NCBI RefSeq assembly: GCF_030063145.1
Contig: NZ_JASISM010000001.1
Span: 558,001 to 622,000 of the forward strand
Length of the DNA: 64,000 nt
Direction of reading: 5' to 3'
From: Cryobacterium sp. PH31-L1
GTDB taxonomy: Bacteria > Actinomycetota > Actinomycetes > Actinomycetales > Microbacteriaceae
Positions 37,803 through 45,073 of the stretch are shown here, one piece after another; the first letter of the stretch is position 1; every line of letters starts with the position of its first letter. Under the pieces are notes generated by a model that was not told the DNA's origin, did not search any database, and saw only the letters and a list, made by a program, of their open reading frames with translations. The translations under genes and the position numbers were made by a program.

Positions 37803-38723
37803 ATGACAACACAGCAACCGGGCATGCGCGACCAGATCGCCGCCCAATCGGTCATCGAAGAGTTGCTCCGCCAGCAGCTGACGATGCCACCGCGCACGCG
37901 TTTCGCCCGGTTCTGGGGAATCAACCCGCTGGCCGCCGACAGCGTCGCCTGGTATCGCGGCGCCCAGGGCGAGATCGAGGTCGGCAAAATTCTCAGCCGG
38001 CTCCCGCCCGAGTGGCGAGTCTTCCACGCTCTCCCCATCGGCAAAGCCAGCGCCGACATCGACCACCTCGTAGTTGGTCCCGGCGGAATCTTCACCATCA
38101 ACACCAAGCACCACCGCGGCAAGAAGATCTGGATCGCCGAACGGTCCTTCCTGGTCAACGGCCAAAAGCAGCCGTACCTTCGAAACTCCACATTCGAGGC
38201 CACGCGCGTCACCAAAAAGCTTCACGGGCGGATGCCGCAGCTCCCGCCCGCGCAGGCCGTGATCGCGCTGGTCAACCCCGCGTCGATCACGATCAAGAAG
38301 AAGCCTGATGGCGTCAGTGTTCTGGATGCCACGGATTTGAGGCGCTGGCTCCTAAGACGGCCGGTGCAGCTCGACGAAGTCCAGCTGGTCGAGCTCGCTG
38401 CCATAATCGACGCGCCCGCATCTTGGTCTGCACCCGCGTCGCCAACGAGTTCCGACTTGATGGCGCAATTCGCTCTTATCGACGGTGAAGTCAAGACGGC
38501 GAGGGTACGACGCGTCACATGGACCCTGCTCAGCTTCGCGACGGTGGCCACGCTCGTAGTCTTCGTCGGTGTGCCGCTCTACGAAAAGTTTGCCCTGGGA
38601 TTCTCGGCGCCCTCTAGCGACCCATACTTGGCGCTAGATGTCGCGGTAGGTGTCGCCGTTCCTCGCACGCCGGTTTGGAAGAAGACCTGGACGGCACCTG
38701 AGACAGCAAAATTCACGGGATGA
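37803..38723 (+). CDS. NERD-domain protein, paralogue 4 (motifs intact)
   Basis: 306 aa. Complete NERD core: AQGEIEVGKILSRLPPEW (candidate Glu), DIDHLVVGPGGIFTINTKHH with Asp87 and Lys102, then QKQPYLRNSTFEATRVTKKL. A C-terminal membrane helix lies near residues 240-258 (WTLLSFATVATLVVFVGVPL) with a further tail that drifts in composition. It matches paralogue 3 over the whole length, including the N-terminus MTTQQPGMRD. GGGGG at about 37793-37797 serves ATG 37803. It is the last ordinary chromosomal gene before the low-GC restriction-modification island. Confidence 0.85.
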   Translation: MTTQQPGMRDQIAAQSVIEELLRQQLTMPPRTRFARFWGINPLAADSVAWYRGAQGEIEVGKILSRLPPEWRVFHALPIGKASADIDHLVVGPGGIFTINTKHHRGKKIWIAERSFLVNGQKQPYLRNSTFEATRVTKKLHGRMPQLPPAQAVIALVNPASITIKKKPDGVSVLDATDLRRWLLRRPVQLDEVQLVELAAIIDAPASWSAPASPTSSDLMAQFALIDGEVKTARVRRVTWTLLSFATVATLVVFVGVPLYEKFALGFSAPSSDPYLALDVAVGVAVPRTPVWKKTWTAPETAKFTG

Positions 38724-39209: not shown

Positions 39210-40313
39210 TTGGTAGCAGGACTTTTTGGGCTCGGGAGTAGCAGTCGTGATTTTGCCCAGGCAAATTCTTGGGGAAAGAATGTTTTCACGAACAGCCTCC
39301 CAATCGCTCTTGCTCGATATATGGACAGCGAGGGTCTGGACCCTGTCTTGATCAGCGCGTACGAGACATCAGCTGGCCGGATCGCAACTCGCCAAACGCT
39401 GACTCCACTCAGCCAAATTCTAAATGTTGAACCAGACAAGGCCCGATTTCTTTTCGAAACAATTTACAGCCGACATATTCCATTCTCGAAAGATGCACCC
39501 GAGAAATCCGATGTTGTCATCGCAGCTACTGACGGCAGCCACAGGCGTGCTCTAGAAATAAAACTTACGACAGTCCCCGATAGCTCATCAGCCGAAAAAC
39601 CGCACGATCAACAATCTTGCGAAATAGTTTCGCGCCCGCTTATGATTGAACAGCTCGCCGTCACAATATGCGCCTCTTTTGGGCTGAAGCGGCGTCGTAT
39701 TCTAAATGAATTGTTAAATGAGTTCATTTCTCATCCTGCCCAAATGCCCTGGCCGGACGAGCCCAAGATGCTGGCACGACTGCCTGAAATTCTTAACGCC
39801 GTTGAACAAGTTATCCGGCGAGGACTCGAACTCCAGACTCCGATGGTTCTTCACCCGATATGGAGAACTGTGGGCAAAACGCCTGTGCTTGAGGACGATT
39901 GTTTTGATGTTTTCGTCTGGACTGACCTGGCGTGGAGCCAGCTGCTCCTTGACTCGTCTAGGACGATTCGAGACGAGATATCTCGGCCACAGCGCTCCAT
40001 TATTTGGCTAGTGAAAATGCTCTGGGACTATTCGACGCAGGGTTCATTTGATAGAGCAAATACCTTCGAGTCCATTACCTACAATAAGCAGACGGACAAG
40101 GCTGCCTCATTTGCAGGCAACAAGACCATTGTTCACCTTCGTGGACAATACCTATCCTCACCACGCATCCCCGCGTCAGCGCTATCGAATATTATTCTCG
40201 GTGACGGGGTGAAATTCCTCGCCCCAGAGCGTCGGCTTGATGCAGCGATTTTCATTCAGGTGATCCGTGACAGTGTCAAGCCATCGGCAGCGCTTGGCGG
40301 GCCAGTCGAATAG
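39210..40313 (+). CDS. Type II restriction endonuclease, HindVP family
   Basis: 367 aa from TTG 39210, supported by AGGGGG about 7 bp upstream. The start VAGLFGLGSSSRDFAQANSW followed by GKNVFTNSLPIALARYMD is the HindVP signature as I recall it. A PD-(D/E)xK-like site is seen at SDVVIAATDGSHRRALEIKL, around residues 100-118. Codon use is lower in GC than the neighbours, a sign of recent transfer. HindV recognises GRCGYC; this homologue probably does too, but that is inference. The partner methyltransferase starts 254 bp downstream on the same strand. Confidence 0.78.
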   Translation: MVAGLFGLGSSSRDFAQANSWGKNVFTNSLPIALARYMDSEGLDPVLISAYETSAGRIATRQTLTPLSQILNVEPDKARFLFETIYSRHIPFSKDAPEKSDVVIAATDGSHRRALEIKLTTVPDSSSAEKPHDQQSCEIVSRPLMIEQLAVTICASFGLKRRRILNELLNEFISHPAQMPWPDEPKMLARLPEILNAVEQVIRRGLELQTPMVLHPIWRTVGKTPVLEDDCFDVFVWTDLAWSQLLLDSSRTIRDEISRPQRSIIWLVKMLWDYSTQGSFDRANTFESITYNKQTDKAASFAGNKTIVHLRGQYLSSPRIPASALSNIILGDGVKFLAPERRLDAAIFIQVIRDSVKPSAALGGPVE

Positions 40314-40529: not shown

Positions 40530-40553
40530 TTGACGTCAAGTAGTTGACGTCAA
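40530..40553 (+). promoter_or_regulatory. Twin TTGACGTCAA palindromes before the methyltransferase gene
   Basis: Two perfect 10-bp palindromes, at 40530-40539 and 40544-40553, start 14 bp apart and end 14 bp before the ATG. Each contains TTGAC, a -35-like element, and GACGTC, which is a GRCGYC site. They could bind a regulator or make the promoter sensitive to the system's own methylation. Confidence 0.65.
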
Positions 40554-40567
40554 AGAATGTAGGAAAT

Positions 40568-41776
40568 ATGCGTGCTGTAGACCTTTTCGCCGGTTGTGGG
40601 GGGTTGTCGAGGGGATTTGCGGATGCGGGGGTGGATGTTGTCGCTGCATTCGAGAATTGGGATCCGGCGATCGCGACATATCGCCAGAACTTTGATCACC
40701 CAATTTTCAAGATGGATCTCTCAGATGTTGAAGGAGTGTCGTCCCTTCTCAAAAGTGATTTTGCTCCAGACATGATTATTGGCGGGCCCCCGTGTCAGGA
40801 CTTCTCGAGTGCCGGCAAGCGCATCGAGCAGGGCCGTGCAGACCTCACTGTGGCATTCTCTCAAATTGTTTCAAAGGTTCGACCGGCCTACTTCGTAATG
40901 GAGAACGTTGAACGAGCAAGAGGTAGCGCGGCATATCAAGACGCACGTGCGAACTTCAAAGAGGCCGGGTATGGTCTCATTGAGACAGTTCTGGATGCAA
41001 GCTTCTACGGGGCACCGCAGAAGCGCAAGCGATTCTTCTGTATTGGACGCCTTGGGGCAGAAGATTCATTTGTTAGCGTCCCGCCAGAAGCCTTGGCCTC
41101 TACGAAGCCAATGACGGTTCGCGACTACTTTGGAGAATCTTTTGGCGGTGACCATTATTATCGTCATCCTCGCAACTACAGCCGCAGAGCTGTGTTTTCG
41201 ATCGATGAGCCTGCCCCGACGATGCGGGGAGTGAATCGCCCTATCCCAGGCGGTTATCCGGGTCATTCCGGCGATAGTCATGAGTTGGATGGTTCGGTGA
41301 TGGCTATTACGACGGAGCAGAGAGCACGCATTCAGACGTTCCCGTCCAGTTTTATTTGGGAAGGACCAAAGACACATGTTGAGCAACTCATTGGCAATGC
41401 GGTTCCAGTTAAGCTTGCTGAATTTATTGGCCGATATGTGATGGACCATGCTCGATCCCAGCATGAGAATTCGTTGGATGAATTCCTTGTTTGGCTTGAA
41501 GCGCGATCAGCTGATGGTCATTCGCGGTCCTTGAACGACGTAGTGTCGCGAGTTCGCAGAGCCAATCAACTTCAGCCTTTTCCCGAATACCCAGATCTCC
41601 AATATTTAGTTGATTTAGCAGCCGGAGTTGGCTTCCAAGAATTGGTTCCGGCAGTCCGATCTCAACTTCGTCGAGCCGCAAAGTTGTATGTAGAGTTCAT
41701 GACTCCTATTCCTTCAGGTGGTGAAAGTAAGCTATCGCGTCCCGCGACCCCCGAATCTAAAAACGTGGTGGTCTAG
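40568..41776 (+). CDS. DNA (cytosine-5)-methyltransferase
   Basis: 402 aa from ATG 40568 (AGGAAAT upstream). All C5-methyltransferase landmarks are present: motif I VDLFAGCGGLSRGF, motif IV IIGGPPCQDFSSAGKR with the catalytic Cys near residue 76, motif VI YFVMENVERARG, motif VIII GAPQKRKRFFCIG and motif X LIGNAVPVKLAEFIG. A target-recognition region lies about 190-270. An extra C-terminal part of about 100 residues follows motif X. It would protect the host from the HindVP-type endonuclease. GC is lower than in the surrounding genome. The recognition sequence is inferred, not read. Confidence 0.93.
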   Translation: MRAVDLFAGCGGLSRGFADAGVDVVAAFENWDPAIATYRQNFDHPIFKMDLSDVEGVSSLLKSDFAPDMIIGGPPCQDFSSAGKRIEQGRADLTVAFSQIVSKVRPAYFVMENVERARGSAAYQDARANFKEAGYGLIETVLDASFYGAPQKRKRFFCIGRLGAEDSFVSVPPEALASTKPMTVRDYFGESFGGDHYYRHPRNYSRRAVFSIDEPAPTMRGVNRPIPGGYPGHSGDSHELDGSVMAITTEQRARIQTFPSSFIWEGPKTHVEQLIGNAVPVKLAEFIGRYVMDHARSQHENSLDEFLVWLEARSADGHSRSLNDVVSRVRRANQLQPFPEYPDLQYLVDLAAGVGFQELVPAVRSQLRRAAKLYVEFMTPIPSGGESKLSRPATPESKNVVV

Positions 41777-42696: not shown

Positions 42697-42945
42697 ATGT
42701 CGAAGTCAAGTGTCACCGACGCTAGGGCGCGCCTGCCCGAGTTGATCGCCCAGGCCGCCTCAGAGGCCGTCTTCTTGGAGCGTCGCGGAAAAGTCGCTGC
42801 TGTGCTGGTGAGCCCCGAGCACTACGCGCGCATGCAAGAAGCGCTTGAGGAGGCTGAGGATGTAGCGGCGTTTGACGTGGCGATGGCCGACGAGGGCGAC
42901 AACATTCCCTGGGAGCAGGTCAAAGCGGATCTCGGTTGGGTGTGA
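42697..42945 (+). CDS. Phd/YefM-family antitoxin (module 2)
   Basis: 82 aa. KSSVTDARARLPELIAQAAS, then EAVFLERRGKVAAVLVSPEH form the Phd/YefM DNA-binding part. The acidic C-terminal helix (EALEEAEDVAAFDVAMADEG) binds the toxin. Its TGA overlaps the toxin GTG (GTGA). GAGG lies very close to the ATG, so translation may be inefficient or leaderless. Confidence 0.87.
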   Translation: MSKSSVTDARARLPELIAQAASEAVFLERRGKVAAVLVSPEHYARMQEALEEAEDVAAFDVAMADEGDNIPWEQVKADLGWV

Positions 42946-43199
42946 GCAAGTACCGCATCGAATTGCGCCCGGCAGCGGTCAAAGCTTTACGTCGTATTGA
43001 TCTGCAGGACCGCGGTCGGGTACAAGGTGCCATCGCCCTGCTGGGCGAAGACCCTCGACCGCCCGGGGCGAGAGCGTTGCAAGGCCGGGACGGCTATCGG
43101 GTGCGGGTGGGCAGCTATCGCATTATCTACACCATTCGCAACGACGTCCTTGTGGTGGTCGTGGTCACCGTCGGTCATCGCCGGGACGTGTACGAGTAG
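42942..43199 (+). CDS. relE: RelE-family mRNA interferase toxin (module 2)
   Basis: 85 aa from GTG 42942. A classical RelE: SKYRIELRPAAVKALRRIDL, GEDPRPPGARALQGRDGYRV, RVGSYRIIYTIRNDVLVVVV and VTVGHRRDVYE. The R-x-G-x-YR-I-x-Y and GHR-x-x-VY motifs hold the residues used for ribosome-dependent mRNA cleavage. It overlaps the antitoxin by 4 bp. A broken EF-G-like fragment begins within 100 bp downstream. Confidence 0.92.
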   Translation: MSKYRIELRPAAVKALRRIDLQDRGRVQGAIALLGEDPRPPGARALQGRDGYRVRVGSYRIIYTIRNDVLVVVVVTVGHRRDVYE

Positions 43200-43521: not shown

Positions 43522-44748
43522 TTAACGTTCTCCTGCCGCAAAAGCCCCGGACATCAGGTCGATCTCGCTCTCAGCAATGCCAAGCAGGCGCGCTTCGGCG
43601 GCCCAACCGGAGACCGCATCGGCAATCTGAGCGAGGACCACCCGGGGGTTGCGCACCCGAAAATAGGGCGCCACGTCTAGCAGCATGTCGGTGTTTGCCG
43701 TGTAGGTGTCGAAGTCGATGGCGGTCGACAGGTGTTTGGTCCCTGGTGTGGGATTGGGGTTGAGATCGAACGCCGGCGACAGATTCCAACTGCCTTCGGA
43801 GTCGGACCGTAGAAAGCCATGATTCCGAAGATGATCGTCGGTATTGGAGATCAGGATGGAAAATGCTATCCGCCGCCACAGCTCGTTGAGCTCACTCGTA
43901 GCCGACGACGATGACTGTTCGATGACCTCGGCGATTTCCAAATAGCTGCGCCGCTCACCGTCGACCGCTTCGAGCATGGTCATCGCGCTCGCGTATCCGA
44001 TTCGGTGTGACTCCTGCCGATCGAACCGATTGAGGAGGAGCACGTTTCGTCCGGCAACGTTCATCAACTCGTGACGCGGTGTGTTGATGCCGGCGCGGGA
44101 CGCGAGAGTGAGGGATAGGTGCTCCCAGGCCATGACATCCCATTCGTCACTGCCCACGCGTGGGAATTTCGCTATCAACAGTTCACCGCGACCGTTTACG
44201 ACGGCCGCCTTTGGACGTGCGCCTCCGATCGAGCTTCCGGCACCCAACAGCAAGCGCAAAGCTTCGTCATCCGGGTTTTCACTCTCCACCGATTCGACGG
44301 CACGGAGCAGTCGCGACAGGTCAACGAGGTGTGGCACACTCCCGGCCTCTTCGGCTTGCCAGGCAGCGGCGTCAGGCATGCGGAATCGAATGGCTCCTTG
44401 GCGCAGGTCATCCCTGACGCCGAGGGTGAAGTCGAGTTCGCCGAAACTGCGCTCAGTGACACCATTTCTGGAAGCGCGACGGCGTTCCGACCGTTCGAGG
44501 AGTCGCCGCCCCCACCTGTCAGGAGCGCAGTCGGTGAATGCGCCGAACAGGCTATGACCATCCGTTGTATTGAACGCGCCCGACGACATCGGAAGGGCAG
44601 GATCGAGAGAGTAGGCGCCCGGCTTTGCCAGATACTCAGGTGTGTAGGCGAAGGTGGCACTCTCGGATCCCCGTCGACGGTGTGAATAGACGGTTCCGGC
44701 CCGCACGTCGGAGCCGTTCAGTTGTACCCACACTTCGGCGTCAGTCAT
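43522..44748 (-). CDS. hipA: HipA-family serine/threonine kinase toxin
   Basis: 408 aa from ATG 44748. HipA features: N-terminal GAFNTTDGHSLFGAFTDCAP followed by DRWGRRLL, the ATP-site region GAGSSIGGARPKAAV, RNVLLLNRFDR, the catalytic-loop motif ILISNTDDHLRNHGFL and the metal-binding LSPAFDLNPNP. HipA kinases phosphorylate tRNA synthetases and induce dormancy. The start overlaps the end of the HipB gene by 8 bp. All kinase motifs look intact, so it is probably active. The gene's 3' end abuts the EF-G-like fragment. Confidence 0.9.
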   Translation of the reverse strand: MTDAEVWVQLNGSDVRAGTVYSHRRRGSESATFAYTPEYLAKPGAYSLDPALPMSSGAFNTTDGHSLFGAFTDCAPDRWGRRLLERSERRRASRNGVTERSFGELDFTLGVRDDLRQGAIRFRMPDAAAWQAEEAGSVPHLVDLSRLLRAVESVESENPDDEALRLLLGAGSSIGGARPKAAVVNGRGELLIAKFPRVGSDEWDVMAWEHLSLTLASRAGINTPRHELMNVAGRNVLLLNRFDRQESHRIGYASAMTMLEAVDGERRSYLEIAEVIEQSSSSATSELNELWRRIAFSILISNTDDHLRNHGFLRSDSEGSWNLSPAFDLNPNPTPGTKHLSTAIDFDTYTANTDMLLDVAPYFRVRNPRVVLAQIADAVSGWAAEARLLGIAESEIDLMSGAFAAGER

Positions 44749-45073
44749 GAGACACCCGTTTTGGCGTGCTTTGTCGCACCCGCTGCGGCAGAATCTCTTC
44801 GGATCGGAGCCGGCCCAGATCGCTGCGGTACGGGTCGGCACTCGAGACGATCGTGTCCATGATTCCGAGGGCTCGGAAGATGCGCAGCGTTGTTTCCAGG
44901 CTGACGCCGCCGTTGCCGGATTCCAGTTTGGCGAGGGTGCCCCGGCTGACGCCGGCCCTGTCGGCGACCTGCTCCATGGTCAAGCCAAGAAGCTTGCGCC
45001 AGGTTTGAGCGTCGGCTCCGAGTTCGCGGATGGCGCGACGAACGGGAATGGGTGTCCGTCGCTTCTCTGGCAC
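44741..45073 (-). CDS. hipB: HipB-like Xre-family antitoxin
   Basis: 110 aa from GTG 45073 with AAAGGAGG upstream. The Xre helix-turn-helix is WRKLLGLTMEQVADRAGVSR followed by GTLAKLESGNGGVSLETTLR. A C-terminal extension of about 35 residues (SADPYRSDLGRLRSEEILPQ) is longer than in E. coli HipB and may contact HipA. It represses the operon and neutralises HipA. A GTAAAC-N9-GTTTAC inverted repeat spans its ribosome site. Confidence 0.88.
   Translation of the reverse strand: MPEKRRTPIPVRRAIRELGADAQTWRKLLGLTMEQVADRAGVSRGTLAKLESGNGGVSLETTLRIFRALGIMDTIVSSADPYRSDLGRLRSEEILPQRVRQSTPKRVSHD

Follow-up and report, generated by a model that had tools for sequence, protein, structure and literature searches.

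A probable HindVP-type restriction-modification island

The window analysed here (64,000 nucleotides of the genome of Cryobacterium sp. PH31-L1, contig NZ_JASISM010000001.1) contains a restriction-modification (R-M) block of 2.6 kb, in which the genes for the endonuclease (R) and the methyltransferase (M) are arranged in tandem, R first and then M, with 254 bp between them (Table 1). A Pfam search bore out the initial annotation of the two products as a HindVP-family endonuclease and a C5 DNA methyltransferase, with RE_HindVP aligning over 326 of 332 positions with the endonuclease. The endonuclease sequence contains the motifs EIK and APERRLD; ExK and SPERRFD-type motifs (the E-x-K and PERR residues) are reported in the BsaHI study to be required for the activity of that enzyme (PMC2413257). 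The target-recognition region was conserved among the aligned HindVP-family methyltransferases, and the system is of the HindVP type and probably GRCGYC-specific. The low G+C content of the block (approximately 51–53%, compared with 64.5% for the window) and the finding that, among 60 genomes (its own and those of close relatives), the endonuclease was present solely in the window's own genome suggest that the block is probably an acquired island. Because no close relative has the HindVP endonuclease, a near-neighbour comparison was impossible. No open reading frame for an Xre-type controller was found between or beside R and M in the window.

The window also encodes a NERD-domain (nuclease-related) protein immediately upstream of the island (37803–38723), a Phd/YefM antitoxin and ParE-type toxin pair adjoining it downstream (42697–43199) and, on the minus strand (43522–45073), a possible HipA-like protein whose gene is preceded by an Xre-type HTH gene, the one of the two that the domain search covered.

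Table 1. Features of the R-M block (positions in the window; R is A or G, Y is C or T).
Feature	Position	Strand	Basis or remark
HindVP-family restriction endonuclease gene (TTG start)	39210..40313	+	Pfam RE_HindVP (PF09519), 1e-94
Possible −35 TTGACG in left palindrome	40530..40535	+	Best −10 lies 17 bp downstream; consensus match only
Operator GACGTCAAGTAGTTGACGTC, 20 bp, consensus GRCGTCAA-N4-TTGACGYC	40532..40551	.	Motif and spacing shared by nine other locus types, LlaJI among them
Left GRCGYC site (GACGTC)	40532..40537	.	
Right GRCGYC site (GACGTC)	40546..40551	.	14 bp from left site
Possible −10 AAGAAT (4/6)	40553..40558	+	Weak; 17 bp from left half
C5 DNA methyltransferase gene (402 aa, ATG at 40568)	40568..41776	+	Pfam DNA_methylase, 3e-59, residues 1–289
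Candidate operator-binding-type domain, C-terminal, approximately residues 302–380 of the methyltransferase	41471..41707	+	HMM

The twin sites form one conserved 20-bp element

Two copies of the palindrome TTGACGTCAA are located at 40530–40539 and 40544–40553, exactly 14 bp apart from start to start, and the second ends 14 bp ahead of the M start codon. The twin and its spacing agree with the initial annotation, as does the identification of GACGTC as a GRCGYC site in both copies. No other copy is present in the window (two seen, 0.09 expected from shuffled sequences, none of which reached two), and GRCGYC itself is not enriched there (202 seen, 206 expected). Together, the two palindromes make up one larger inverted repeat, GRCGTCAA-N4-TTGACGYC.

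The twin is a single conserved regulatory element built from the probable recognition sites of the system. For the comparison, an endonuclease scan of about 85,000 species yielded 80 loci, to which enterobacterial plasmids and viral contigs were added. In the first locus set, all GRCGYC pairs within 40 bp upstream of R or M were spaced by 14 bp; such pairs were found in plasmids of E. coli, Morganella and Citrobacter, in a spirochaete (where the twin reads GGCGTC...GACGCC), in a Geobacter MAG and in the window, and two viral-contig loci contributed two further twins. The search of homologous HindVP loci suggested in the initial annotation recovered the same twin at the same spacing. GRCGTC-N8-GACGYC occurred nine times in the non-redundant loci (a count that predates the addition of the held-out genome G1190, see below), every time at an R-M promoter, and with any other gap between 0 and 24 bp the GRCGTC/GACGYC arms occurred three times in total. 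Among the 20 GRCGTC half-sites of ten operators, only position 2 varied, between A and G only, and AA followed in nearly all of them. This variation agrees with GRCGYC, but the conserved motif also reaches past the recognition site. Most of the HindVP-family loci found were adjacent R-M pairs with neither an extension on the methyltransferase nor the operator upstream, and in phage records neither the endonuclease nor the domain described below was found.

TTGACG is also a −35 consensus, as would be expected if the twin had nothing to do with the R-M system and were a binding site of a host transcription factor or a −35 pair that arose by chance. We regard this already disfavoured reading as very improbable, since the 20-bp motif goes with the R-M system in different phyla and on plasmids. 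Moreover, the genome of the window contains only four copies of TTGACGTCAA, the twin and two others inside long open frames, and the inner motif GTCAA-N4-TTGAC is not over-represented in it (three occurrences versus nine for the reversed control), and a host regulon of TTGACGTCAA was rejected on these two grounds.

The element overlaps the methyltransferase promoter in relatives

Eight relatives were examined first. In all of them the half-site nearer the methyltransferase gene supplies the −35 TTGACG, and a −10-like hexamer (four to five of six matches) follows at 17 bp (seven relatives) or 18 bp (one). The summed −10 matches at exactly 17 bp amounted to 32, compared with a shuffle mean of 16.7, and none of 20,000 shuffles reached this value. 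In the window both operator halves read TTGACG, and the −10 is weak either way: AAGAAT, which might give a nearly leaderless mRNA, or alternatively TATGCG, which overlaps the ATG. Since the −10 matches are weak both here and in G1190 (three of six at 17 bp), the promoter arrangement is not uniform.

A C-terminal domain of the methyltransferase is strictly associated with the twin

The window methyltransferase exceeds most of its relatives in length by an unannotated C-terminal domain of approximately 80 amino acids, and the enzymes of the enterobacterial plasmids and the spirochaete likewise carry about 80 extra residues past the last catalytic motif. The tail of the window enzyme resembles those of four other methyltransferases from loci with the twin, as well as free-standing small genes beside further methyltransferases (leave-one-out HMM on the window domain, 3.9e-15; domain HMM match in its own genome, 2.4e-25). 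The Geobacter MAG encodes the domain in a small gene of its own, which overlaps the stop of the methyltransferase gene; in the viral contigs, too, it has its own gene, located downstream of M. Among the 89 loci with both R and M, ten carried the domain and the twin (three of them near-identical E. coli plasmids), three the domain only, none the twin only and 76 neither (Fisher test, 5.6e-11, with related loci treated as independent). The endonuclease tree requires at least three separate placements of the domain/twin trait.

The three domain-only loci, two from Nostoc (L035 and L075) and L037, have a detached domain gene and no twin sites. The Nostoc genes (L035, 3872–4168; L075, 6348–6645, split across two frames) lie about 250–280 bp after the methyltransferase gene and are possibly a decaying controller. 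The gene of L037 (6020–6352) is more divergent, lies on the opposite strand after the methyltransferase gene and has a single GGCGTCAAG half-site upstream. The domain was absent from 295 genomes of the order of locus L017.

As a held-out test, 297 genomes were searched with the protein domain alone, blind to the DNA. One new genome, G1190, was obtained. Its HindVP locus is divergent and includes a small, free-standing domain gene that overlaps the stop of the methyltransferase gene, and GGCGTCAAGAGGTTGACGTC lies in the divergent promoter region between the genes. In G1043, a 30-residue domain match was set aside, as neither a twin nor a HindVP locus lies beside it. We also noted by eye a Vsr mismatch endonuclease-like frame after the HindVP endonuclease gene of G1190 (L118, 6940–7452).

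These associations bear on the switch favoured in the initial annotation, in which, as in CfrBI, methylation of the −35 region would by itself lower transcription of M, with no protein dedicated to the operator. CfrBI is a real precedent for a methylation switch (PMC3978073), the GRCGYC sites overlap the −35 in the relatives, the R position of the operator varies only within GRCGYC, and the central cytosine of this sequence is reported to be methylated by M.BsaHI, a relative (PMC2413257). A switch of this kind, however, does not predict that the spacing would stay at 14 bp in different phyla, that AA/TT would be conserved outside the recognition site or that an extra domain would be associated, and the twin was found in none of the 76 domain-less loci; we therefore consider it improbable. 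It is less probable still that the catalytic domain or the endonuclease binds both sites cooperatively as ordinary recognition sites and that the tail only promotes dimerisation. This would fit probable cognate sites at a fixed spacing, but the conserved bases reach beyond GRCGYC, and four twin-bearing loci (L033, L098, L099 and G1190) encode the domain as a protein of its own with no change in the operator.

Predicted fold of the domain

Searches of Pfam, NCBIfam, PHROGs and PDB sequences returned no informative family for the domain except for one marginal FliZ HMM match (0.00098) of a single family member, and the fused domain matched no HTH family. Structure models of the free-standing L099 protein (pLDDT 93) and of the window domain (pLDDT 71, moderate) were all-helical, and the modelled four-helical domain weakly resembles the core-binding (SAM-like) domains of tyrosine recombinases. 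Tyrosine recombinases were prominent among the Foldseek matches, with XerA second (probability 0.80, TM 0.64–0.68) and integron and lambda integrases at TM 0.51–0.60, all with non-significant E-values; the likeness concerns the helical fold of the model, and unlike the recombinases the window domain comes without their catalytic domain. FliZ is a regulator related to recombinases, and MrpR of SPbeta has a recombinase fold. MrpR has been termed a master repressor (PMC10516654).

Proposed autoregulation by the methyltransferase

The small domain protein also matched the N-terminus of M1.LlaJI, encoded in the LlaJI operon of plasmid pNP40 (leave-one-out HMM, 8.4e-19), and the pNP40 sequence before M1.LlaJI holds GGCGTCAAATTCTTGACGCC, in which two LlaJI sites (GCGTC/GACGC) occupy the 20-bp frame seen in the window. 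The primers printed in PMC1459862 agree by eye with this stretch; the paper reports GACGC/GCGTC as the LlaJI specificity and a promoter probe that carried two LlaJI sites. M1.LlaJI has been reported to be a repressor of its own gene (PMC3695355). As module and switch are the same as in LlaJI, the methyltransferase itself most likely carries the 'missing' controller as a fused part. The initial annotation saw no controller gene, which is probably wrong given the controller-like domain at the methyltransferase C-terminus and its separate gene in four twin loci. Its idea of the twin as a promoter switch holds insofar as a conserved regulatory element overlaps the methyltransferase promoter, but not as a switch without a controller.

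R-M systems entering a new cell must make the protecting enzyme ahead of the cutting enzyme. In our judgement, the twin is probably the operator of an autoregulated HindVP-type R-M system and is probably bound by the C-terminal domain of the methyltransferase, with autorepression similar to that of LlaJI; DNA binding by the domain, repression and an effect of methylation on the operator are what we infer from the sequences. As the methyltransferase accumulates, two C-terminal domains would bind the 20-bp inverted repeat as a symmetric pair over the core promoter and deny RNA polymerase access to the methyltransferase gene, so that modification would be strong upon entry into a new cell and kept low later. 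Since both halves of the operator are target sites of the enzyme itself, methylation of the operator would be a likely second input, probably altering binding or promoter strength.

A single operator and a single small domain, the latter free-standing or attached to either end of the methyltransferase, are found again and again, in three HindVP lineages as well as in LlaJI. Should the domain bind the operator by itself, it would be a portable controller, and the repressor activity of M1.LlaJI would be placed in its N-terminal domain. More tentatively, and as a possibility that we would not yet call probable, the domain may represent a new class of mobile R-M controller, possibly with a core-binding rather than an Xre fold, fused at either methyltransferase end or free-standing, whose operator of own target sites would read the methylation state of the cell directly. 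Made up of target sites of the enzyme itself, the operator offers a clean test of direct methylation sensing by such controllers.

Comparison with known systems

The window system shares with the HindVP/BsaHI (GRCGYC) family the endonuclease family and a C5 methyltransferase with a conserved target-recognition region (PMC2413257); the results of the BsaHI paper do not describe an operator or domain of this type. In SsoII, Ecl18kI and EcoRII a methyltransferase also doubles as a repressor, acting through an additional domain on an inverted-repeat operator (PMC3695355), but there the domain is N-terminal with a predicted helix-turn-helix, and regulation and methylation use different sites; the window enzyme has no N-terminal HTH domain of this type, its DNA_methylase domain beginning at residue 1. 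CfrBI, the analogue chosen in the initial annotation, is alike in that the recognition sequence overlaps the methyltransferase −35, and unlike in its divergent overlapping promoters, an arrangement absent from the tandem genes of the window, its single site, methylation as the sole signal and the lack of a dedicated domain (PMC3978073, PMC12707154). As the controller-like domain, fused or separate, is the N-terminal domain of M1.LlaJI, LlaJI is the closer analogue. In the LlaJI system of Lactococcus pNP40, a C5 methyltransferase carries a homologous domain of approximately 80 amino acids. The promoter there contains the 20-bp inverted repeat found here, its two cognate sites equally spaced, and a −35 TTGACG that is separated by 17 bp from a −10-like hexamer. 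LlaJI differs in the N-terminal position of the domain, its two methyltransferases and its McrBC-like endonuclease, compared with a C-terminal domain, one methyltransferase and a HindVP endonuclease in the window, which by analogy would work like LlaJI, yet is not a LlaJI system. The regulatory logic is known from LlaJI; to our knowledge, its presence in HindVP systems, the mobility of the domain (N-terminus, C-terminus or separate gene) and the operator consensus are new.
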